Position numbers and translations under genes: made by a program. This document shows positions 44,376-53,661 of a DNA stretch of 64,000 nucleotides, piece after piece. Where the stretch lies: the NCBI GenBank assembly GCA_016201105.1, contig JACQDN010000040.1, forward strand, positions 1 to 64,000, written 5' to 3'. Position 1 is the first letter of the stretch, and each line of letters starts with the position of its first letter. Origin of the DNA: Pseudomonadota bacterium (GTDB lineage: Bacteria > Pseudomonadota > Alphaproteobacteria > Micropepsales > Micropepsaceae). The notes under the pieces were generated by a model. The model was given only the letters and a program-made list of their open reading frames with translations. It had not been told where the DNA came from and searched no databases.

Positions 44376-44589
44376 GTGGAAATTCTAGCAACGATCACTT
44401 GCCCGGCTTGCGGCCATCGCGCGCGAAACGATGCCGACGGATGCCTGCCAATATTTCTACGACTGCAAGGGTTGTGGCGTCTTGCTCAAGCCCAAGACGG
44501 GCGATTGCTGCGCGTTCTGTTCCTATGCCGACATGCCGTGCCCGCCGATGCAGGCGGCGGGCGAAACCGGCGGGAGTTGCTGCCAATGA
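44376..44589 (+). pseudogene. GDCCVxC-domain protein with a two-base deletion frameshift
   Basis: From GTG 44376 the frame encodes TITCPACGHRAR; it then loses register. In the adjacent frame the rest of the family is intact: ETMPTDACQYFYDCKGCGVL, then LKPKTGDCCAFCSYAD and GGSCCQ to the stop at 44589. Comparison with the intact paralogue at 48484-48717 suggests loss of one CG unit from a CG run at about 44418-44426 (a CGC codon missing two bases). An ATG at 44431 could still give a 52-residue product without the CPxCG pair. Metal or sulfur binding is likely for the family; function not established. Confidence 0.7.
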
Positions 44590-44985: not shown

Positions 44986-45393
44986 CTATCTCAGGAACCA
45001 AATCGCCGCCAACAAGGCTGGCGAGAGCATGCTCGTGAGCACACAGTAGAAGCAGTAGCGCCCGAGCTTTGCCATGTCGCGTATCCCCTGAATGTTGGCC
45101 AGGAGGGCTGCAATCGCAAGGATCAGCAACAGCGACCAATCCCAGTTCGATCTAACCGGGCCAAGAAGAAGCAGCGCCACCGCGCTGTAGAGAACCGCGG
45201 CGATATAGCCATCGGGAACGCCGAAGGGTTTGGCAAAGGGTGCGTCTGCGACCACTTCGCAGCCGTCGCCAAACACCGGGCACCAGAGATGTTCGACGAC
45301 TCTGCTCTGGTAGAGCCCAACATAGACCATCGAGGCCGCACTCAGCACGGCCAGTCCGATTGCAACAAGATAAATAGCATTCGATGACAGCAT
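44986..45393 (-). CDS. vitamin K epoxide reductase (VKOR)-family membrane protein
   Basis: 135 residues with four predicted helices. It has the VKOR cysteine arrangement: a loop pair Cys38 and Cys45 (CPVFGDGC) and the membrane CxxC Cys114-Cys117 (CFYC). Bacterial VKOR reoxidises DsbA-type proteins with quinone and thus drives periplasmic disulfide formation. It is the last gene of the minus-strand redox set that contains thioredoxin and CcdA-type genes. Confidence 0.85.
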   Translation of the reverse strand: MLSSNAIYLVAIGLAVLSAASMVYVGLYQSRVVEHLWCPVFGDGCEVVADAPFAKPFGVPDGYIAAVLYSAVALLLLGPVRSNWDWSLLLILAIAALLANIQGIRDMAKLGRYCFYCVLTSMLSPALLAAIWFLR

Positions 45394-45429: not shown

Positions 45430-46119
45430 TTATGCGGGCTTGAGTTGCTCATCGGCGGTCGATTCATCTTCGAGCCCCAGACGCCCTCGAATTTCCGCAA
45501 GTCGCCGATCGAGATCGATGTCCTTGCCGGACGTCACCTCCAGCCCGCGATCTTCGAAGACATCGCGGTCGGGATGTTTTTTCCGCCAGCGTGTGACTGC
45601 AACGTCGCGTTGTTTCACCAGCGCTTCGATATCGGATCGAAACAATACGAACATCGCCGACAACCAGCGGTTCAAAGGCCAGGACGGCCGGGCCAGATCG
45701 ACGACAAATCTATCCAGCATCGCGATGACCTCTTCGGCCGGATGCCAAGTTTCCGCCGTCACCCAGCGGTTGGTGGTGAACAACCGGATCGGCCGGCCTG
45801 CCTGGCTCATGGAGATCGCCACCAGATGGCACGGTGGATTGTCGTCGTCCGCATCCGGACGCAGAAACGTGTGGAAATGGCCATAGTCGTTCCACGCGCC
45901 GCGTGTCTGCGGGTGCGCGTGAAAATAGTACTGCGCGCGCGTCTCGCGATCGTAGACGTCGCTCGCAGGGTAGTGGTCGTATTCGATGAATTCGCAGCCG
46001 CTCAGCACTTCCGCGACCAGATTGGAGCCGTCTTTCTCCAGAACGCGAATACAGTTCACGATTTCCGCGCCGGCTTCCGCCATGCGTTCGAGCGCCGCCG
46101 TGTCGCCGGCGTCACTCAC
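45430..46119 (-). CDS. DUF6969 family protein
   Basis: 229 residues from GTG 46119, which overlaps the NrtS stop region by eight bases; ATG 46158 upstream in frame is the alternative. The central QYYFHAHPQTRGAWNDYGHFHTFLRP with clustered histidines, and the following PCHLVAISMSQAGRPIRLFTTNRWVTAE, fit a family I associate with DUF6969. Several conserved His residues suggest a metal site. Function unknown. Confidence 0.6.
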   Translation of the reverse strand: MSDAGDTAALERMAEAGAEIVNCIRVLEKDGSNLVAEVLSGCEFIEYDHYPASDVYDRETRAQYYFHAHPQTRGAWNDYGHFHTFLRPDADDDNPPCHLVAISMSQAGRPIRLFTTNRWVTAETWHPAEEVIAMLDRFVVDLARPSWPLNRWLSAMFVLFRSDIEALVKQRDVAVTRWRKKHPDRDVFEDRGLEVTSGKDIDLDRRLAEIRGRLGLEDESTADEQLKPA

Positions 46120-46384
46120 CGTGCGACCCCATCCGGCTGAAGGCGGAATACGCGCCATAGGACGCCACGAAGAACGGCACGGCATAGGTCAGAACAAGCC
46201 GCAGAAGGTTCACGGGCTTGCCGTCGACGATCTCCGCGCCCTGATTGATGGCGTTCAGGATCGTCCCGACGACAAACGCAATCGACAGCGAGCGCACGGC
46301 AATGGGCCATGACGCCGCTTTGCGCAGCGCATGCCAGTCGATTCTGCCCGTTCCGTGTCTCAATCGTATCGCGCCGGTTTCCAC
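46112..46384 (-). CDS. NrtS-like nitrate/nitrite transporter-type small membrane protein
   Basis: About 90 residues, two helices. The SLSIAFVVGTILNAINQGAE, and RLVLTYAVPFFVASYGAYSA pattern is that of the NrtS family. GTG 46384 follows TAGGG at a good distance; TTG 46393 is too close. Whether it moves nitrate here is unclear, since no nitrate assimilation gene is nearby. Confidence 0.7.
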   Translation of the reverse strand: METGAIRLRHGTGRIDWHALRKAASWPIAVRSLSIAFVVGTILNAINQGAEIVDGKPVNLLRLVLTYAVPFFVASYGAYSAFSRMGSHGE

Positions 46385-46396
46385 GTCGCACAAACC

Positions 46397-47122
46397 CTAA
46401 AACCGCGTGGTGAGGCGAAGCAACCAGTCGGGCATATGGGAGACGAGAAATCCCTCCACGGTCTGGTTCAGGCCGCTCAAAATCAAAACGCCGAAGAGGA
46501 TCACGCTCACGCCAAGAACCGCTTTCGCGCCCGTGGCAGAGCCGGCAATCTTGCCGCGCCAACGCATCAGAGTGGCGCGCGACACTGTTCCAAGCGCCAG
46601 AAGGGGAACGGCCGCTCCGCTGCCGAATGCCAGCATGATGAAACTCGCTTGCGCCAGATTGTGGCCGTTGGCGGCCATCAGCGCCGCGGCTCCCAAGGCC
46701 GGCCCCGAACACGGACTCCAAACCGCACCGAACAAGAGCCCAAGGCTAAACTGACCCGTCAATCCCGTCGGCGAGAATCGTCCGAAACGCTGCTCGACCC
46801 ATCCGCCCACAGGTCCGGCCGCCGTCGCGAAACGCGCCTGTAAAGACGGCAAGACCAAGACGATTCCGAACGCCATGAGCGCCACCGCGCCCACCGACTG
46901 GAATGCGCCGCTGCCGAGACCCACCGAGAATCCCAGCGCGGCAACAAACGTGCCGATGGTCGCAAACGACAAGGCCAAACCCGATGCCAGCGCGAGCGGA
47001 CCGAACCGGTGCGCGCCGAGGGCGCCCGACAGCGCAAGAGGCAGGATCGGCAATACGCACGGAGACAGGATCGACAAGATCCCCGCGACAAAGGAAAACA
47101 GCGCCGCACCGAATGGAAACAC
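46397..47122 (-). CDS. ccdA: CcdA/DsbD-type thiol-disulfide transmembrane protein
   Basis: 241 residues with six to seven helices. The paired intramembrane cysteines are in SPCVLPILPLA near residue 21 and in WSPCSGPALGAAALM near residue 137, the hallmark of the CcdA/DsbD membrane domain. It carries electrons from cytoplasmic thioredoxin to periplasmic substrates, such as apocytochrome c or metal-binding thiols. GTG start at 47122, ten bases after the thioredoxin gene. Confidence 0.88.
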   Translation of the reverse strand: MFPFGAALFSFVAGILSILSPCVLPILPLALSGALGAHRFGPLALASGLALSFATIGTFVAALGFSVGLGSGAFQSVGAVALMAFGIVLVLPSLQARFATAAGPVGGWVEQRFGRFSPTGLTGQFSLGLLFGAVWSPCSGPALGAAALMAANGHNLAQASFIMLAFGSGAAVPLLALGTVSRATLMRWRGKIAGSATGAKAVLGVSVILFGVLILSGLNQTVEGFLVSHMPDWLLRLTTRF

Positions 47123-47132
47123 GTTTATAGCC

Positions 47133-47525
47133 CTATTCGCCGCGCCGCATCATCGCTTCGACCACACCGGAATCGGTGCCGCCGATCAGCCGCGCCGTTT
47201 CTTTCTCGCCTTTAAATACGATCAACGTGCTTTGGGTTGAGGCGCCGAACCGGCGCACGATGTCCTTCCGGTCGTCGAAATCCACATCGAAAACCACGAA
47301 GCGCGCGAATTCCGGTTTGAGAAGCTCGCGTTCGATGATCGCGTTCTGGGCCTTGCAGGTCGGACACCAGGAAGCGGTGATGTCGACGAGGATCGGTTCG
47401 CCGTCGGATTGGGCTTTCGCAAAACGCGCGGCATCGTAGGCGTAGCGTTCCGCGGCAACCGCCGACCCCACCAATGTCATTCCACCGACAACAAGCGCCA
47501 GCATCGCTGCGATCCGTCGTATCAT
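47133..47525 (-). CDS. periplasmic thioredoxin-like protein
   Basis: 130 residues with a signal peptide (MLALVVGGMTLVGSAVAAER) and the redox motif ASWCPTCK, then FDVDFDDRKDIVRRFGAST and the TLIVFKG strand. The fold equals the soluble gamma domain of DsbD, here encoded separately next to CcdA; together they could form a split DsbD system reducing periplasmic cysteines. AGGGGCG precedes the ATG. Confidence 0.87.
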   Translation of the reverse strand: MIRRIAAMLALVVGGMTLVGSAVAAERYAYDAARFAKAQSDGEPILVDITASWCPTCKAQNAIIERELLKPEFARFVVFDVDFDDRKDIVRRFGASTQSTLIVFKGEKETARLIGGTDSGVVEAMMRRGE

Positions 47526-47559: not shown

Positions 47560-47994
47560 TCAAGCCGTCAGCGGCGCGGCGCGCCAGCCGTAAACGGCGC
47601 CCATCGTGGCGCCGAAAACAATATGAAGAAGCAGCGTCATCATTGGGGCGGCGAGACCGAAGTGAAGGCCGAAGAGCCCGGCACCCGCCATGGGCATGAC
47701 CATCACCATCATCACAAGCCATGCTCCGATTCCAAACACGACGCCGCGTGTCGTTGCATTGCCGCCGGGAATTCGCGCCTGCAGCAGGGCAAAGAGACCG
47801 CCCCACACGATGCTGCCGATCATGAAATGCATGAGCCATCCGGCGAGCAGACTGGGAACGCCCGACATCTGCGTCAGCATCTGGATGACATCGAGTTGCG
47901 GCATCATTCCCATCATCTGTTTCACAGCCATGAAGACAGACAGCACGACAGTGGCCGCGAAGCCTGCAAAAACACCATTTCCCAGTCGACCCAT
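47560..47994 (-). CDS. DUF6789-like four-helix membrane protein
   Basis: 144 residues from ATG 47994, with a CCGGAGGC site. Four helices, Met-rich (VKQMMGMMPQ and AWLVMMVMVMPMAGAGLF), with a conserved WLMHFMIGSIVWGGLF segment. I associate it with the DUF6789 family; no function is known. It sits directly downstream of the NPC-repeat gene and upstream of the thioredoxin-like gene, so it belongs to the same SigF-type transcription unit. Confidence 0.6.
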   Translation of the reverse strand: MGRLGNGVFAGFAATVVLSVFMAVKQMMGMMPQLDVIQMLTQMSGVPSLLAGWLMHFMIGSIVWGGLFALLQARIPGGNATTRGVVFGIGAWLVMMVMVMPMAGAGLFGLHFGLAAPMMTLLLHIVFGATMGAVYGWRAAPLTA

Positions 47995-48064: not shown

Positions 48065-48358
48065 TTAATGCGGTGCGCAGGGATTCGATTTCGCCGCGCA
48101 GGGATTGGTCTTGGCGGCACACGGATTGGCTTTCGGCGCGCAGGGATTGACCTTCGCCGTGCGATTCTTCCTGGCGTGATGCTTCAGTTTCGCGGCCGCG
48201 CATGGCTTGCAGGGATTGACGGATTTCGCGCTGCACGGATTTGACGCCGGCGCGCAAGGGTTGGCGACAGCGACCGAAGCCGGCGCGTAGGCGGCCGTGA
48301 GGCCTCCGAACGCCATGGCGGTGCCCAGCGTCAACATGGATTTGCGAAAATGTTTCAT
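48065..48358 (-). CDS. secreted NPC-repeat cysteine-rich protein, paralogue 1
   Basis: 97 residues with a signal peptide (residues about 1-32, LTLGTAMAFGGLTAAYAPAS). The mature part consists of seven NPC units (NPCAPAS, NPCSAK, NPCKPCAAAK, NPCAPK, NPCAAK, NPCAAK, NPCAPH) separated by a basic stretch LKHHARKNRTAK; cysteine is almost the only reactive residue. The N-terminus FRKSMLTLGTA is homologous to FTKSALTLGAA of the 50952 gene. It is preceded by GTAACC-N16-CGAA at 48460-48435 on the minus strand. Inference: a periplasmic metal-binding or RiPP-type peptide of the SigF regulon. No catalytic domain. Confidence 0.75.
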   Translation of the reverse strand: MKHFRKSMLTLGTAMAFGGLTAAYAPASVAVANPCAPASNPCSAKSVNPCKPCAAAKLKHHARKNRTAKVNPCAPKANPCAAKTNPCAAKSNPCAPH

Positions 48359-48434
48359 ATCGGCTCCCTCATGAGTACAGGTTTTGACTACAGCGGATGC
48401 GCCACCGAAGGAGGAGCACCGCTATATTTCTGTT

Positions 48435-48460
48435 TTCGGAAGGACGCAGCGCAAGGTTAC
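48435..48460 (-). promoter_or_regulatory. ECF sigma (SigF-type) promoter of the NPC-repeat gene
   Basis: On the minus strand GTAACC (48460-48455) is followed after exactly 16 bases by CGAA (48438-48435). This matches the -35/-10 pair I recall for Caulobacter SigF, and the same pair occurs at 50894-50919 before the other NPC-repeat gene. It lies 77 bases upstream of the start codon, in the gap after the GDCCVxC gene. Confidence 0.72.
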
Positions 48461-48483
48461 GTCCCGCGCGATGGGAGCGGCTG

Positions 48484-48717
48484 TTATTGCGGTCGCCGGC
48501 CGCAGTTCCGGCCGCTATCCGGTTCCGACGTTTGCATCGACGGACAGCGCACTGAGCCGTAGGAACAGAAGACGCAGCAATCGCCCGCTTTAGGCCGCAG
48601 CAGGGAATGACAGCCTTCGCACTCGTAGAAGAACTGACAAGCGTCGCGCGGCATGGTTTCGGTTTTGGAAAACCCGCAAATCGGGCACGTGATGCTCGAT
48701 CGATCGATCACGGACAC
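48484..48717 (-). CDS. GDCCVxC-domain zinc-ribbon-like protein
   Basis: 77 residues from GTG 48717. CPICGFSKTETMPRDACQFF, then YECEGCHSLLRPKAGDCCVFCSYG is the family's characteristic string of Cys pairs (CPxCG, CxxC, GDCCVFC). Probably a small metal- or sulfur-binding protein. It is the intact homologue of the frameshifted copy at 44376-44589. It lies downstream of the peroxiredoxin-like gene on the same strand. Confidence 0.8.
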   Translation of the reverse strand: MSVIDRSSITCPICGFSKTETMPRDACQFFYECEGCHSLLRPKAGDCCVFCSYGSVRCPSMQTSEPDSGRNCGRRPQ

Positions 48718-48774
48718 GTCTCAGCCGTTGCGAACTCGAAAATTGCTTTGCGCCTGAAACCGCCGTGCGCCGTG

Positions 48775-49287
48775 TCACGCCTCCCCTCGAGCGGGATAGT
48801 CGTTCTTGGTCACAAACCGAACCGCGCCGAGAATCTCTGCGAAACTCGGCCGCGCGAACGGCATCGTCTGAATTGATGCGGCATAGAGCGTGCCGTCGGG
48901 ACGGACGAGAAACACGCCGGGCTCGAGAAACTCAGGCGGCTCTTTTTCGGAAATGCCGCGGGATACATAAAGACCCCATTTGCGACCCAGCGCGATGGGA
49001 AAGTCGTAGGCGACGCGCAGCCTATCGAGCTCCCAATCGGTCTTTGCCTTGCCCGCGCGCTCTGCCGCATCGGACGTTGCCGCGACCGCGGCGACTCCGG
49101 CGCTCTCGAACTCCGAAAGCTTGCCATTGAGATCGCGCAGATATGTCCTGCAGATGGGACAATGCAAACCGCGATAGACCGCAATCATCGTGAAATGACG
49201 CGGCTGCTCGGCATTGAGTGCGAATCGGCCGCCGCCCACAAGCGGAAGATCGAGCCCGGGAACGGGCAGACGCGGCTTGACCATCAC
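48775..49287 (-). CDS. peroxiredoxin-like (AhpC/TSA-fold) protein
   Basis: 170 residues (GTG 49287 or ATG 49284; GAGGAG upstream). Thioredoxin-fold features: FTMIAVYRGLHCPICRTYLR with a CPIC redox pair, then AVAATSDAAERAGKAKTDWEL and GVFLVRPDGTLYAASIQT. This is the PrxL2/redoxin subgroup that uses a CxxC rather than the PxxxT/SxxC peroxiredoxin motif. Reduction of peroxides or disulfides is likely. It follows nrsF by 33 bases, hence probably under the SigF operon. Confidence 0.78.
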   Translation of the reverse strand: MMVKPRLPVPGLDLPLVGGGRFALNAEQPRHFTMIAVYRGLHCPICRTYLRDLNGKLSEFESAGVAAVAATSDAAERAGKAKTDWELDRLRVAYDFPIALGRKWGLYVSRGISEKEPPEFLEPGVFLVRPDGTLYAASIQTMPFARPSFAEILGAVRFVTKNDYPARGEA

Positions 49288-49320
49288 AAACTCCTCGTCA
49301 TGCGTTTTGTTTCTGCTGCA

Positions 49321-49986
49321 TCAAGGCGCGGGTGCATAGCGCCACCGCAGAATTTGCCGCCCCAGCAATCCCGCGAGCAGGACAAGTCCAAATACGGTTC
49401 CGGTTTGCCAGACGAGAACCATCAAACTGGCGTCTACCGGATGAAACAGACGCAAGCCGACCTGCGCCAATCCGCCGGCGGCGAGCGCGCCGAGCGCTGT
49501 CGTCGTCATCGGTGCGATCGCCGATCCGCGCAGGATCATGACCGCCATCGCAACGGCGGGTCCAAAACCCACCATCGCAATGCCCGGCAGACACTGCCAA
49601 TCGGGACGCAGCACCAGGCCTGCGCTTCCCAATGAAAACCAGGTCTGCACGCAACCTTCGCCGAGAACGCCCAGCCACACGGCCAAAGGCAGCAACGGCA
49701 TGTAATGTTCCCAGCGCGGCCGGCCGGGCACTCCGGCGCAGAACGCGGCCATCGCCGCCATCATGGCCGTCGCCAGCGCTGCACCCTGCTCGATCAACCA
49801 GCGGCCGTCCATCAATCGTTCGCCGAGGTCCGGCCGCAATCCCATGATGAAGACGATCGCCGCAACCCACGGCCATGAAAGACCAAACCACACCGCGGTT
49901 CGCAAAAAAGGAGAACGCAAGCGCCGCACCGGCACCACGTCGGCCGCCAACCGTTTGACGAGTTCGTCCGTCGGGATCTTGATCAT
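49321..49986 (-). CDS. nrsF: NrsF-type anti-sigma factor
   Basis: 221 residues with six predicted helices and a short cytoplasmic N-terminus (IPTDELVKRLAADVVPVRRL), the layout of the DUF1109/NrsF family. Cysteines in helices (FCAGVP, EGCVQT, WQCLPG) may sense metal or thiol status as reported for Caulobacter NrsF. It overlaps sigF by four bases and holds the sigma factor at the membrane until heavy-metal stress releases it. Confidence 0.85.
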   Translation of the reverse strand: MIKIPTDELVKRLAADVVPVRRLRSPFLRTAVWFGLSWPWVAAIVFIMGLRPDLGERLMDGRWLIEQGAALATAMMAAMAAFCAGVPGRPRWEHYMPLLPLAVWLGVLGEGCVQTWFSLGSAGLVLRPDWQCLPGIAMVGFGPAVAMAVMILRGSAIAPMTTTALGALAAGGLAQVGLRLFHPVDASLMVLVWQTGTVFGLVLLAGLLGRQILRWRYAPAP

Positions 49987-50591
49987 TTGGGTTGCTTGGT
50001 CTCTTCGAGTTTGTCACCCACAAGGCGAAGGCGCAGCGCTTTGAGCCCACGATGAACGGCCACTTTCAGCGCTGCAACCGACATGCCGCTCTCCGCCGAT
50101 GCCTCCTTCAGAGACAATTCGCGCAGTTTCAGCAACTCGACCGCCTGGCGTTGGCCGGCGGGCAAATTCGCGATGGCTCGCCTTAGCAGCTCGGGATCTC
50201 CCTGACTTTCCACTCCTTTCTTCGAATCGTCCGAGGAAAAAGTTTCGGGCAGTTCGGGAACGGCCGACTCGTTTCTGGCGACGCGGGCGTGCCGCCTGTG
50301 TGCGTCGATCAGGCGATGCCGCGCAATCGAGGCCAGCCAAGGGACGAACGGGCGGTCGGGATCGTAGGTGTGGCGCACGGAATGCAGCGACAGCAAGACA
50401 TCCTGAACGACGTCGTTGATTTCCAGGCCATAGTGGCGCTGCGAACTTACAACACGCGCGATAATCGGGAGCGAACGACGCAACACCTCGGCATAAGCGG
50501 CCGCATCGCCCGCTTGCGCCAACTTCATAAGCCGGCCGAGAACAGCATCTCCTGTCTCATCAGCCACGAAAATCTCCCGCGCTGCCGCCAT
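49983..50591 (-). CDS. sigF: ECF RNA polymerase sigma factor, SigF type
   Basis: 202 residues: region 2 (DVVQDVLLSLHSVRHTYDPDRPFVPWLASIARHRLIDAHRR) and region 4 (LPAGQRQAVELLKLRELSLKEASAESGMSVAALKVAVHRGL) as in group ECF sigma factors. It is followed by nrsF with ATGA overlap. Likely targets are the two GTAACC-N16-CGAA promoters in this window. I do not see that motif upstream of sigF itself between 50591 and 50900, so autoregulation by this motif is not evident. Confidence 0.9.
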   Translation of the reverse strand: MAAAREIFVADETGDAVLGRLMKLAQAGDAAAYAEVLRRSLPIIARVVSSQRHYGLEINDVVQDVLLSLHSVRHTYDPDRPFVPWLASIARHRLIDAHRRHARVARNESAVPELPETFSSDDSKKGVESQGDPELLRRAIANLPAGQRQAVELLKLRELSLKEASAESGMSVAALKVAVHRGLKALRLRLVGDKLEETKQPK

Positions 50592-50951
50592 GGATTTCGA
50601 CGCTACTCGCAGCGATGCCCGATTTCTCAGGATCGTCCAAATCCGGCCACAGGACCTTGAGAAAAGTCAATTTGTATCGGCAACGCGTGCGTGGCGCAGT
50701 TGGCCATATGCAACGTGTGAATGAAAGCCCCTGCAGGTTGGTGAGGATGGACCGCAACGCTGCCGCCTGGAGGGGCTGGGGGGCGGAATAAGCACCGACG
50801 CGGCACCATCCTCGCCAATCATTGCGTGCGCGCGCCTGGAAAGGTTTCGCCTGCTTCGTCGCGCTCTTAAATCGGGCTCTGGGATCGCACACGGTAACCT
50901 TTCGCGGCGGCACTTCGAATTCATGGCTGTAACCGATCCTGGAGCTTCGCC
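50592..50951. other. intergenic region between sigF and the NPC/bufferin operon
   Basis: About 360 bases with no convincing gene. A minus-strand frame at 50560-50913 and short alternatives have no family features and are treated as shadows. The only clear signal is the SigF-type promoter at 50894-50919. A second GTAACC at 50929-50934 has no CGAA at the right distance. The gap also lacks a recognisable terminator. Confidence 0.7.
50894..50919 (+). promoter_or_regulatory. ECF sigma (SigF-type) promoter of the NPC/bufferin operon
   Basis: GTAACC (50894-50899), 16 bases, CGAA (50916-50919), with a predicted start about 7 bases on and a leader of some 25 bases to ATG 50952. The same arrangement occurs at 48460-48435 before the other NPC-repeat gene. 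Confidence 0.75.
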
Positions 50952-51137
50952 ATGAGGCCTTTCACGAAATCCGCTCTCACGCTTGGCGCCGCCGTGGTGC
51001 TGAGCGGTTCGCTGGCTTCATGCCAGTCGCTCAACAACATGATTCACGGGCGCAGCCCGTGCGCAGCCACGGCGAACCCGTGCGCCCCCAAGAATCCCTG
51101 CAAGCCCAAGAACCCCTGCGCAGCCAACCTTCGCTGA
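50952..51137 (+). CDS. NPC-repeat lipoprotein peptide, paralogue 2
   Basis: 61 residues. The N-terminus FTKSALTLGAAVVLSGSLAS ends in a lipobox (LASC, Cys24 predicted acylated), so the mature peptide is about 38 residues. The body holds NPC-type units (SPCAATANPCAPKNPCKPK, then NPCAANLR) with Lys after each Cys-Pro block. It is the first gene after the SigF-type promoter, 58 bases before the DUF2282 gene; a TGGAGC site precedes the ATG. Homologous N-terminus to the 48065 gene. Inference: periplasmic, metal-binding, possibly modified by the MNIO enzyme encoded two genes on. Confidence 0.75.
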   Translation: MRPFTKSALTLGAAVVLSGSLASCQSLNNMIHGRSPCAATANPCAPKNPCKPKNPCAANLR

Positions 51138-51195: not shown

Positions 51196-51516
51196 ATGCA
51201 TCCTCGACTATCCCTCCGTTCTTCTCTCCTCGCCGCAGGAGCGATGGCCGCCACGATTGGCGTTGCGGCAACCGCATTTGCGGCACCGCTCCAGATTACG
51301 CCGGAACAGATGGCGACGATGGAGAAGTGCTATGGCGTGGCGCTTGCAGGAAAGAACGACTGCAAGGCAGGCCCCGGCACGACCTGCGCGGGAACATCCA
51401 AGATCGACTATCAGTCCAATTCCTGGAAGCTCGTCCCGAAGGGCACCTGTACCAACATCACCACGCCCGTCGGCCAAGGCTCGCTTTCAGAATCGAACGC
51501 TCACCTTCCGGCTTGA
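51196..51516 (+). CDS. bufA: DUF2282 family bufferin-type precursor peptide
   Basis: 106 residues with a signal peptide (about residues 1-30, ending AATAFAA) and a mature domain with four cysteines at 45, 56, 64 and 85 ([20 protein letters not shown] and KGTCTN). This is the DUF2282 (BufA1) precursor family whose cysteines are modified by the DUF692 enzyme BufB to give copper-binding bufferin. GAAAGGAGTTG is a strong ribosome site. Followed by the MNIO enzyme and partner genes. Confidence 0.9.
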
Positions 51517-51525
51517 GCGACCCCG

Positions 51526-52413
51526 ATGCGTACACAGACGCCCCTACGCTGTGACGCTCGTGCCCCGATTCCCGCCCGCGCGGGAATCGGGGTCAAGCCG
51601 ATTCACTATCGCGAACTGCTTTCTTCCAAGCCGGCTCTGGCGTTCATCGAGGTTCATCCCGAGAATTACATGGGCGCCGGCGGGCCGCCGCATGCCTATC
51701 TCGAAGAGATCGCAAAACACTATCCGCTTTCATTGCACGGTGTCGGGTTGTCGCTCGGCGGGGACGAGCCGCTTAACCGCGATCACCTCGCACGCTGGCG
51801 CGCTCTGGTCGATCGCTACCAACCCGCTCTTGTCTCGGAACATGTTGCGTGGTCGCGCTTCGGCGAGGTTGCATTGCACGATCTGCTGCCGATCCCCTAC
51901 ACGGCAGAATCCCTGCATATCGTGTGCGATCACATCGACCAGATGCAGAATGCGCTCGGCCGCACCATCCTGGTCGAAAATCCTTCCACATATGTGACGC
52001 TTTCTCAGTCGGATATTCCCGAACCGGATTTTCTCGTCGAAGCGGCCAACCGCACGGGATGCGGCCTTCTGCTCGACATCAACAATGTCTACGTCAGCGC
52101 CGGCAATCACGGCTTCGATGCCCGCAAATGGCTCTCGCGCGTTCCCGGCGGCCCTGTGGGGGAAATCCATCTGGCCGGCCATTCCCTCATTCGCGACGGC
52201 GCTTTTCAAATTCGCATCGACGATCACGGCAGCCGGGTCTGCGCCGAGGTGTGGGAACTCTATCGCGAAACCGTCGCGCGTATCGGCGCCCGGCCGACGC
52301 TCATCGAATGGGACAGCGATGTCCCCGAACTGGCGGTTCTTTGCGACGAGGCGAAGCGGGCGGATGATACGGCCGCCGCCGCCGTGGAATTGCGCGATGC
52401 TGCCGCTGCGTGA
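51526..52413 (+). CDS. bufB: MNIO-family multinuclear iron enzyme (DUF692, BufB)
   Basis: 295 residues, TIM-barrel DUF692 fold. Metal-ligand blocks IEVHPENYMG, LHGVGLSLGG, SEHVAWSRFGEVALHDLLPI, VENPSTYVTL, LLDINNVYVS, and EIHLAGHS are in order. MNIO enzymes use a mixed-valent multi-iron site to oxidise cysteines of the precursor into heterocycles (thiooxazole in bufferins). It sits between the precursor and the BufC-type partner, with the downstream start overlapping its end. Confidence 0.93.
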   Translation: MRTQTPLRCDARAPIPARAGIGVKPIHYRELLSSKPALAFIEVHPENYMGAGGPPHAYLEEIAKHYPLSLHGVGLSLGGDEPLNRDHLARWRALVDRYQPALVSEHVAWSRFGEVALHDLLPIPYTAESLHIVCDHIDQMQNALGRTILVENPSTYVTLSQSDIPEPDFLVEAANRTGCGLLLDINNVYVSAGNHGFDARKWLSRVPGGPVGEIHLAGHSLIRDGAFQIRIDDHGSRVCAEVWELYRETVARIGARPTLIEWDSDVPELAVLCDEAKRADDTAAAAVELRDAAAA

Positions 52414-53173
52414 CTTTCAAGCGGAGATGACCGCCTATCTGCTGTCGCCGCCCGGTCCGAGCGTGCCGGACTCCTTGCTGGCCCTGCTGCCGTCGGATGG
52501 CCCTCACAACCCCAAGCGCTTCGCCGTCTACAAGAACAATGTCTACGCCAGGCTTGTAGACGCTTTGCGCGATACGTTTCCGGCCGTTGAACGGCTGGTC
52601 GGCGAAGAGTTCTTCCGCTACGCAGCCGTCCAATACGTCGCTCAAACTCCGCCAAGGATAGGGACGCTTCTGGCCTACGGCGGATCGTTTCCGCAGTTCC
52701 TCAGCACCTTTCCGCCAGCCGGCACGGTTCCGTATCTCAGCGACGTCGCACGGCTGGAATATCTCTATCTTGAGTCCTATCACGCGCCCGACGCAGCGCC
52801 GATCGTCAGCCTGCCGAGCGATCGCGAGCAACTTCGGCCGATGCTGCATCCGTCGGCGCGGCTGATGACGTCGCCGTTTCAAGTGTCGCGGATCTGGGAG
52901 TTGAACAGGAGCGAGGCGACGTTCGACAACGTCACGCTGCCGCAGCAGCGCGAATACCTCCTCATTGTCCGACCGGAGCGTGAGGTCGAAGTACGCCGTC
53001 TATCGCTTGGCGCCTATGCCGCGGTTCTTGCGTTCGCAGACGGCGGTTCGCTGGCTGCGGCGTATGAAGAAGCCACCTGGGCGAATCCGAGTTTCGATTT
53101 CGCGGCGCACGTCGAAACGCTGGCGAAGGCTGGAACGTTTGTGGCCTTCACCGAACACGACGTCCAGCAATGA
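52397..53173 (+). CDS. bufC: DUF2063 family partner protein of the MNIO enzyme (BufC)
   Basis: 258 residues; ATG 52397 lies 17 bases before the bufB stop. The N-terminal LRDFQAEMTAYLL and NNVYARLVDALRDTFPAVERLVGEEFFRYAA are the DUF2063 signature. The partner binds the precursor leader and delivers it to the MNIO enzyme. Overlaps the next gene by ATGA. Confidence 0.9.
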   Translation: MLPLRDFQAEMTAYLLSPPGPSVPDSLLALLPSDGPHNPKRFAVYKNNVYARLVDALRDTFPAVERLVGEEFFRYAAVQYVAQTPPRIGTLLAYGGSFPQFLSTFPPAGTVPYLSDVARLEYLYLESYHAPDAAPIVSLPSDREQLRPMLHPSARLMTSPFQVSRIWELNRSEATFDNVTLPQQREYLLIVRPEREVEVRRLSLGAYAAVLAFADGGSLAAAYEEATWANPSFDFAAHVETLAKAGTFVAFTEHDVQQ

Positions 53174-53661
53174 GCAATCAGATGAGCATGAAAAGCAGGA
53201 GTTCTCTCAATCCTATCCAAGCCGGGCTGAGGCTCGTGCGATGGCTGGAAGGCGTGTCGTACGACACGCTGCTGGCGACGCCGGCGCGGATCTTCATCGC
53301 CGTCACGTTCTTTCTGTCCGGGCGCACGAAGGTCGACGGACTTCTGACTCTCAAGCCCAGCACCTATTATCTGTTTCAATACGAGTACAAGGTGCCGTTC
53401 ATTCCGCCGCAGATCGCCGCGCATATCGCGGCGTATTCCGAGCATCTGTTTCCAATGCTTCTCGTCATCGGATTCGCGTCGCGGCTAAGCGCTTTGGCGC
53501 TGTTGGGCATGACGACCGTGATCGAAGTGTTCGTCTATCCCGATGCCTGGGAAACCCATCTCGGCTGGGCCACGGCGCTTGCGTTCATCCTGTTTCGCGG
53601 TCCCGGGGCATTGTCGCTGGATTATCTCGTCCGAAGGCGATTCGATGGCCCGCGGGCCTAG
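53170..53661 (+). CDS. DoxX-family membrane protein of the bufferin operon
   Basis: 163 residues with four hydrophobic helices. The segment ARIFIAVTFFLSGRTKVDG near residue 42 and SEHLFPMLLVIGFASRLSALAL belong to DoxX. DoxX-type proteins are the regular fourth gene of DUF2282/DUF692/DUF2063 operons. Their role is unclear; electron transfer or membrane anchoring of the modifying complex has been suggested. Confidence 0.85.
   Translation: MSNQMSMKSRSSLNPIQAGLRLVRWLEGVSYDTLLATPARIFIAVTFFLSGRTKVDGLLTLKPSTYYLFQYEYKVPFIPPQIAAHIAAYSEHLFPMLLVIGFASRLSALALLGMTTVIEVFVYPDAWETHLGWATALAFILFRGPGALSLDYLVRRRFDGPRA

Follow-up and report, generated by a model that had tools for sequence, protein, structure and literature searches.

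Exported Asn-Pro-Cys repeat peptides of a sigma-F/bufferin locus and their association with the uncharacterised family DUF6969

The first 64,000 nucleotides of contig JACQDN010000040.1 (assembly GCA_016201105.1), from an alphaproteobacterium of the Micropepsaceae, contain a sigma-F/bufferin locus that encodes two short peptides with repeated Asn-Pro-Cys (NPC) units. This whole 64 kb stretch is referred to here as the window, and the two peptides as NPC7 and NPC4. We lean towards the view that both are members of a family of exported NPC-repeat peptides that is widespread and whose dedicated partner is DUF6969 (PF22308), not the bufferin maturase MNIO (DUF692), and that they are stress-induced thiol peptides acting by the mechanism proposed below. 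Exported cysteine-repeat peptides together with DUF6969 point to an undescribed cysteine-peptide system; the link of DUF6969 to such peptides is reported here.

The wider NPC family was sampled with a triple-NPC DNA pattern, blind to neighbouring genes, over genome contigs, which yielded at least 118 stretches. Eighty-four loci were retained (80 by rule, with L042 removed and L021, L032, L083, L125 and L128 added by eye) as tiles of up to 8 kb each; genome-level counts refer to 49 NPC genomes, and 34 of the 84 loci, some on short contigs, fall outside these. All-against-all clustering of neighbouring open reading frames (ORFs) returned one dominant non-NPC family, found in 37 of the 84 tiles and identified as DUF6969 from alignment to the window protein and, in the genomes searched, from matches to the family model. 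The NPC gene shares the strand of DUF6969 in 32 of these 37 tiles, is separated from it by at most 300 nt in 27 and lies upstream of it in 27. DUF6969 occurs in 33 of the 49 NPC genomes versus 12 of a background of 299 Pseudomonadota genomes that are at least 90% complete and include the window's own genome (Fisher p about 3e-24); among NPC genomes titled Pseudomonadota it is found in 31 of 35. An artefact of a single clade was considered and dropped, the adjacency being found in records titled as Alpha-, Beta- and Gammaproteobacteria.

The reverse test started from 11 non-window DUF6969 genes of the 299 genomes, drawn regardless of NPC, of which 10 were testable; beyond the contig-edge gene L152, no NPC protein was found in 11 kb. 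A cysteine-repeat peptide is close to 8 of the 10. In six cases the neighbour, no more than 2 kb away, is an NPC-type protein (L149, L150, L151, L156, L157 and L158); L151 coincides with locus L043 from the pattern-based sampling, and the L158 protein has just two NPC and two SPC units. Two others have a different cysteine-repeat peptide directly upstream, with PCAAKK units at L154 and as a CCAAEG lipoprotein at L155. Plasmids were also searched: 168 records match DUF6969, and among eight records from five genera (Neorhizobium left out) a cysteine-repeat peptide stands beside DUF6969 in four genera. The Skermanella plasmid encodes a peptide with seven NPC units followed by DUF302, an extracytoplasmic function (ECF) sigma factor and NrsF. 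In Sinorhizobium, a peptide with four Pro-Cys units, mostly APC, overlaps the annotated DUF6969 start (L218) and another carries three Pro-Cys units (L219). The Ciceribacter peptide has 3 NPC and 11 Pro-Cys units, and Burkholderia glumae encodes a KCGAKC-repeat peptide near DUF6969, with thioredoxin, CcdA and ECF sigma factor genes nearby. On plasmid L220, a phosphorylase gene and then genes with an arsenosugar glycosyltransferase annotation lie downstream of DUF6969, which is preceded at some distance by thioredoxin, CcdA and an ECF sigma factor. On the Azospirillum plasmids (L215, L221 and L222), DUF6969 follows Mla lipid-transport genes.

DUF6969 lacks an N-terminal hydrophobic stretch in all 40 aligned proteins, whereas 93 of 99 NPC proteins have one; DUF6969 is thus predicted to stay in the cytoplasm, whereas the peptide encoded next to it is exported. 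Twelve positions are invariant in the 40 proteins (P73, H89, H91, G102, H103, F104, H105, H120, F136, N139, R193 and D194) and three are nearly so (H71, D76 and D79). These residues suggest enzymatic activity and metal binding for DUF6969. An AlphaFold2 model (pLDDT 88.7, pTM 0.85) had no match in the PDB by Foldseek at E<=0.001 (best VIA Z 3.8), and a sequence search of the PDB gave no match at E<=1. No paper naming DUF6969 was found in the open-licence PubMed Central literature, and PF22308 was not among the matches listed there.

The original prediction described two paralogous NPC-repeat peptides, and both ORFs are present. NPC7 (48065..48358, minus strand; orthologues L007, L008 and L009) is a peptide of 97 amino acids with the predicted seven NPC repeats, and NPC4 (50952..51137, plus strand; orthologues L013, L202 and L203) is a lipoprotein of 61 amino acids whose "about four" repeats are exactly three NPC and one SPC. 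Their signal regions are homologous, as had been proposed, sharing the N-terminus F-[RT]-K-S-[MA]-L-T-L-G. Each of the eight cysteines of NPC7 is preceded by proline, and the peptide contains 11 lysines and no Asp or Glu. NPC4 has five cysteines, one of which belongs to the lipobox (LASC), and likewise no Asp or Glu; its lipobox is retained in three congener copies as LAGC, LASC and LAAC. By inspection and hydrophobicity, both peptides combine an export signal (Sec or lipoprotein) with cysteine residues, in agreement with the proposed presence of exported cysteine-repeat peptides in a sigma-F/bufferin locus.

The triple-NPC DNA pattern occurs in the window only in these two genes and in none of 100 shuffles; given this and the sigma-F site statistics below, a chance repeat was dropped as the origin of the pattern. 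A search of the genome with NPC7 matched six places at E<=1, including itself (1e-58) and NPC4 (0.0013); the other four are weak (E 0.1 to 0.7) and are taken as chance matches. Among precursor models, DUF2282 and BufA2 were compared with the two peptides (the EGKCG/oxazolin and Buf_6/12Cys groups of Antoine et al. lie outside this comparison), and neither matched above cut-off, NPC4 reaching 13.5 bits against BufA2 where the cut-off is 60. No metallothionein Pfam family matched the peptides at E<=0.1, and Pfam matches of the repeats to sperm-protein, cornifin and amelogenin families were dismissed as compositional. Judged by composition, a metal-sponge role is plausible.

The Caulobacter sigma-F consensus given in PMC3511200, GTAACC-N16-CGAA, has exactly two perfect matches in the window, one 5' of each NPC gene: 77 nt before the NPC7 ATG (48435..48460, minus strand) and 33 nt before the NPC4 ATG (50894..50919, plus strand). 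Shuffled sequences contain a mean of 0.04 perfect sites, and none of 100 shuffles contains two; when as many as two mismatches are allowed, the count in the window does not exceed the chance level (46 versus 41). Since a perfect site precedes each gene, NPC7 and NPC4 probably each open a sigma-F unit. A perfect site also precedes NPC7 in the congeners G021, G030 and G020, and NPC4 in G021 and in copy L013 of G044; copy L202 of G044 has no perfect match 5' of NPC4. Upstream of the minus-strand NPC4 unit of L013, five GTAACT-N16-CGAA elements lie on the plus strand (1807-2906) at a spacing of about 215-425 nt and may be a repeat array. According to PMC3511200, sigma-F-dependent genes of Caulobacter are induced by chromium and cadmium; the same paper shows release of sigma-F into the cytoplasm under chromium stress and proposes NrsF inactivation as its cause.

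The sigma factor and NPC7 lie on the minus strand, where the genes read in order as follows: a SigF-like ECF sigma factor (49983..50591, family models), the anti-sigma-F factor NrsF (49321..49986, PF06532), an AhpC/TSA redoxin (48775..49287, Pfam search), a protein with a GDCCVxC (seleno)protein domain (48484..48717, NCBIfam model, 104.5 bits), NPC7, a DUF6789 membrane protein (47560..47994, Pfam search; its start is inferred, the mechanical ORF reaching 48120), a thioredoxin-fold protein with a CPTC motif and a hydrophobic N-terminus that is probably exported (47133..47525, ORF reading and domain search), a DsbD/CcdA-type membrane thiol-reductant carrier (46397..47122, DsbD_TM and DsbD_2 matches), a small unnamed protein of 93 amino acids with no Pfam match (46112..46393), DUF6969 (45430..46185, 252.6 bits), with its invariant HxH...HFH residues, and a VKOR-family protein (44986..45393, domain search) that ends the run. 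DUF6969 is thus part of the single-strand gene run of NPC7, as it also is in G030. The 93-amino-acid gene is directly 5' of DUF6969, and a similar gene is found beside DUF6969 in G021, G030 and G044. A second GDCCVxC-like gene (44431-44589) matches the same congener genes as the one at 48484-48717, which is the one matched by the NCBIfam model, and the two flank the NPC7/DUF6969 run.

NPC4 was predicted to be a lipoprotein opening a DUF2282/DUF692/DUF2063 operon, and this layout is present on the plus strand: NPC4 is followed by a bufferin precursor (DUF2282, 51196..51516, 91 bits), the MNIO bufferin maturase BufB (51526..52413, NF050167, 377 bits), a DUF2063 partner protein (52394..53173, Pfam search; its start is approximate, the scanned ORF being longer at 52085-53173) and a DoxX protein (53170..53661, Pfam search).

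Sixty genomes of the genus were compared, the window's own genome included. NPC genes are found in five of them (G000, G021, G030, G044 and G020); weaker NPC matches elsewhere in the genus (L010, L011, L014-L016, L192 and L194) have no frame with more than one NPC. DUF6969 is found in G000, G021, G030 and G044 only, that is, in four of the five NPC genomes versus none of the 55 others (Fisher p about 1e-5), and MNIO in 13 genomes. The gene order NPC7-DUF6789-thioredoxin-CcdA is kept in G000, G021, G030 and G020. NPC4 stands directly 5' of DUF2282-MNIO in all four of its copies in the genus (G000, G021 and twice in G044); the bufferin operon of G030 is without NPC4 and has its own sigma-F site. 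G020 encodes NPC7 behind a perfect sigma-F site, together with SigF-NrsF, and no MNIO match was obtained in its genome. In G044 (C304), the stretch examined contains no NPC7, and the Pro-Cys units of its NPC4 (L202, 8728-9045) number eight to nine, which looks like a collection of the repeats into one gene.

The original prediction named the NPC peptides as candidate extra substrates of the MNIO enzyme. This is upheld for NPC4 as regards its linkage to the bufferin operon within the genus, and is not borne out for the family as a whole. MNIO is found in 10 of the 49 NPC genomes versus 123 of the 299 background genomes (Fisher odds ratio 0.37, p 0.007), and in 8 of 35 when only NPC genomes titled Pseudomonadota are counted (p 0.04); the NPC set includes incomplete metagenome-assembled genomes and other phyla, unlike the background, so this apparent depletion should not be pressed. 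No MNIO gene occurs in the 84 NPC tiles, and none of the 30 MNIO loci examined, each about 3.8 kb long, encodes an NPC peptide. The expected co-occurrence with DUF692 in other genomes therefore stands for NPC4 in the genus and fails as a rule, 39 of the 49 NPC genomes being without MNIO. Of the 10 NPC genomes that have MNIO, two carry it no further than about 12 kb from the NPC locus: G110 at about 4 kb (L209) and G148 at about 11 kb (L208); in G148 the NPC and MNIO loci each have their own sigma-F site. Stretches around MNIO in G118, G105 and G109 contain no NPC gene, and in G101, G113, G128, G135 and G147 contig numbers and coordinates put MNIO elsewhere or leave its position unsettled. The Lys-Cys MNIO FonBC is reported in PMC13097082 to be intolerant to proline at all tested repeat sites, other MNIO groups being outside that test, whereas proline precedes every NPC cysteine. 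This intolerance and the MNIO-poor distribution make it unlikely that NPC peptides in general are MNIO substrates, an idea that genome presence, MNIO-locus content and tile proximity all failed to bear out; NPC4 may be an extra one.

Plausible NPC proteins in the 84 loci comprise short exported peptides and larger multidomain proteins. NPC arms surround a SoxA/TsdA-type cytochrome c (domain match in 28 of the 84 loci), and 14 loci have a cytochrome P460 domain match; NPC proteins also carry thioredoxin (two cases, both in Cyanobacteria), phosphatase-like, YceI and YHS domains. In L023, L026, L030, L036, L051, L068, L107 and others the NPC arms flank the c-heme domain, the L068 protein having 52 NPC motifs; in Alphaproteobacteria they often precede a P460-like domain instead. 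The sulfur transporter YeeE is encoded in 10 loci and DUF302 in 9. The cyanobacterial NPC-thioredoxin fusions are arranged in tandem and directly followed by a CcdA gene (L035, 5396-6693; L088, 4735-6990), a layout that supports a reductant link independently of DUF6969. Genes resembling the formylglycine-generating enzyme, a group termed cuproenzymes in PMC12452194, were seen near NPC or DUF6969 genes at L012/L159, L021, L033, L081, L090, L093, L098, L126 and L211, and tblastn found them in 7 of the 84 NPC tiles.

By analogy with Caulobacter, metal or thiol stress would cause NrsF to free sigma-F, which would drive NPC7 and NPC4 together with the thioredoxin/CcdA run, DUF6969 and the bufferin operon. 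The peptides would be made in the cytoplasm, where DUF6969 may act on their cysteine repeats or escort them before Sec export. In the periplasm, soluble NPC7 and membrane-anchored NPC4 would bind metal through their thiols, which the thioredoxin/CcdA pair would hold reduced. NPC4 would have moved into the bufferin operon, itself an answer to the same stress, and be co-expressed with it. A further-reaching proposal, which we advance tentatively, is that DUF6969 is the founder of a class of enzymes, so far undescribed, that modify or load peptides, and that it is cytoplasmic, metal-dependent and possibly of a new fold. It would modify each cysteine of exported precursors of NPC type (also PCAAKK, APC, CCAAEG and KCGAKC), turning them into exported metal or sulfur ligands that are free, lipid-anchored or carried as arms by c-type cytochromes. 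The bufferin problem would then have been solved a second time, independently of MNIO, and in some Alphaproteobacteria the system would be placed under the same sigma-F switch.

Several observations weigh against the pairing of NPC peptides with DUF6969 in a sigma-F-controlled thiol system. Sixteen of the 49 NPC genomes are without DUF6969, including all three Cyanobacteria, two of four Rokubacteria, both Tectomicrobia, SAR324, others and 4 of the 35 Pseudomonadota; DUF6969 is thus not always needed. Conversely, no cysteine-repeat peptide was seen with DUF6969 at L148 and L153 or in the three Azospirillum records, two of these judged by annotation only. Within the genus, DUF6969 is the fifth gene after NPC7 in the window and about 50 kb from NPC7 in G021, and it was not found in the NPC7-bearing G020, whose contig ends inside CcdA. 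MNIO is itself enriched in the NPC genomes of the genus (4/5 versus 9/55, Fisher p 0.006), so that both partners track NPC there, DUF6969 more closely. Perfect sigma-F sites lie 5' of only 4 of 105 NPC genes of the wider set (0.17 expected), those of L047, L075, L097 and L102, in alphaproteobacterial or unclassified proteobacterial records; sigma-F control therefore appears clade-limited. Similarly, CcdA or thioredoxin is found in only 8 of the 84 NPC tiles, which makes that part of the scheme clade-specific.

One alternative is that NPC4, and perhaps NPC7, is an additional substrate of MNIO and its DUF2063 partner, with each NPC cysteine modified. The genus data speak for it, since NPC4 shares the operon behind the sigma-F site, directly 5' of DUF2282-MNIO in every copy, and NPC genomes are enriched in MNIO; the bufferin operon is also near the NPC locus in two of the ten MNIO-positive NPC genomes, and Antoine et al. 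(PMC12452194) describe precursor genes in tandem and, before MNIO genes, uncharacterised small ORFs for exported cysteine-containing products in the hundreds. We nevertheless regard it as unlikely: NPC and MNIO genes are apart in all tiles and MNIO loci and in most NPC genomes, G020 has NPC7 and no MNIO match, no NPC gene was found in 9 of the 13 genomes of the genus that have MNIO, neither peptide resembles DUF2282 or BufA2 above cut-off, and FonBC does not tolerate proline at the tested repeat sites. An equally doubtful alternative is that the peptides are unmodified, metallothionein-like exported thiol sponges and that DUF6969 is unrelated to them, for example as an enzyme that depends on metal and takes part in the same stress response. 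Their richness in Cys and Lys without acidic residues, the response of Caulobacter sigma-F genes to Cr and Cd (PMC3511200) and the 16 NPC genomes without DUF6969 fit this reading. It is at odds with the close and directional pairing of the genes (no more than 300 nt apart in 27 of 37 tiles) and with the neighbours of DUF6969, which differ in motif (PCAAKK, CCAAEG, APC, KCGAKC) while all being exported cysteine-repeat proteins; together, these features point to the peptide as the target of DUF6969.

Two further readings have little to recommend them over a DUF6969-partnered, metal-binding role. The NPC cysteines could be sulfur or electron carrier arms that accept sulfane sulfur or assist heme domains, like SoxY-type arms, as the fusions to SoxA/TsdA-type cytochrome c and P460 and the YeeE and DUF302 neighbours would allow; this is improbable in that the window peptides have no heme domain and the redox and metal neighbours fit a metal role equally well. 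It is also improbable that the peptides are structural, forming a disulfide cross-linked envelope layer or aggregate. CdeC of Clostridioides difficile, with a six-NPC repeat, is a self-assembling cysteine-rich exosporium protein (PMC7677010), and VKOR, of a disulfide-forming family, closes the NPC7 run; however, the adjoining thioredoxin/CcdA pair would reduce disulfides rather than form them, and the sigma-F site points to stress.

The metal biology of bacteria has only recently come to include MNIO-bufferin systems, and a parallel-looking system occurs here in the same stress locus. The pairing of a cysteine-repeat peptide with DUF6969, which recurs in Alpha-, Beta- and Gammaproteobacteria and to some extent outside them, gives a handle on the function of an uncharacterised Pfam family and ties it to sigma-F, thioredoxin/CcdA and heme proteins. 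No description of the NPC-repeat proteins treated here was found in the open-licence PubMed Central literature, in line with the absence of a published function noted in the original prediction, and the sole NPC repeat found in print is that of CdeC. No word starting with "NPC" occurs in the main texts of PMC12452194 and PMC13097082, as distinct from their supplements; the unlisted small precursors of these studies may include NPC peptides.

Among known proteins, CdeC has a run of Asn-Pro-Cys units in a cysteine-rich protein, as here, but belongs to the exosporium of a spore-former (PMC7677010) and is likened by motif only, with no common origin implied. The SoxA/TsdA-type cytochromes c and cytochrome P460 are domains that larger NPC proteins hold between or after their NPC arms, whereas the window peptides are free of heme domains. 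Oxazolin and fontiphorin, which are EGKCG-repeat captophorins, are likewise exported peptides of a short repeated cysteine motif, and copper binding is reported for gonophorin (PMC13097082); their unit is EGKCG where that of the NPC peptides is NPCxxK, and FonBC is intolerant to proline in the repeat. The bufferins (Buf1/DUF2282 and Buf2), with MNIO and DUF2063 (PF05114, NF050167), are alike in pairing a Sec-exported cysteine peptide with a cytoplasmic enzyme, in their sigma-F/NrsF control and in sharing the window locus. NPC peptides differ from them in their repeated Pro-Cys units and in a partner that is DUF6969 rather than MNIO.

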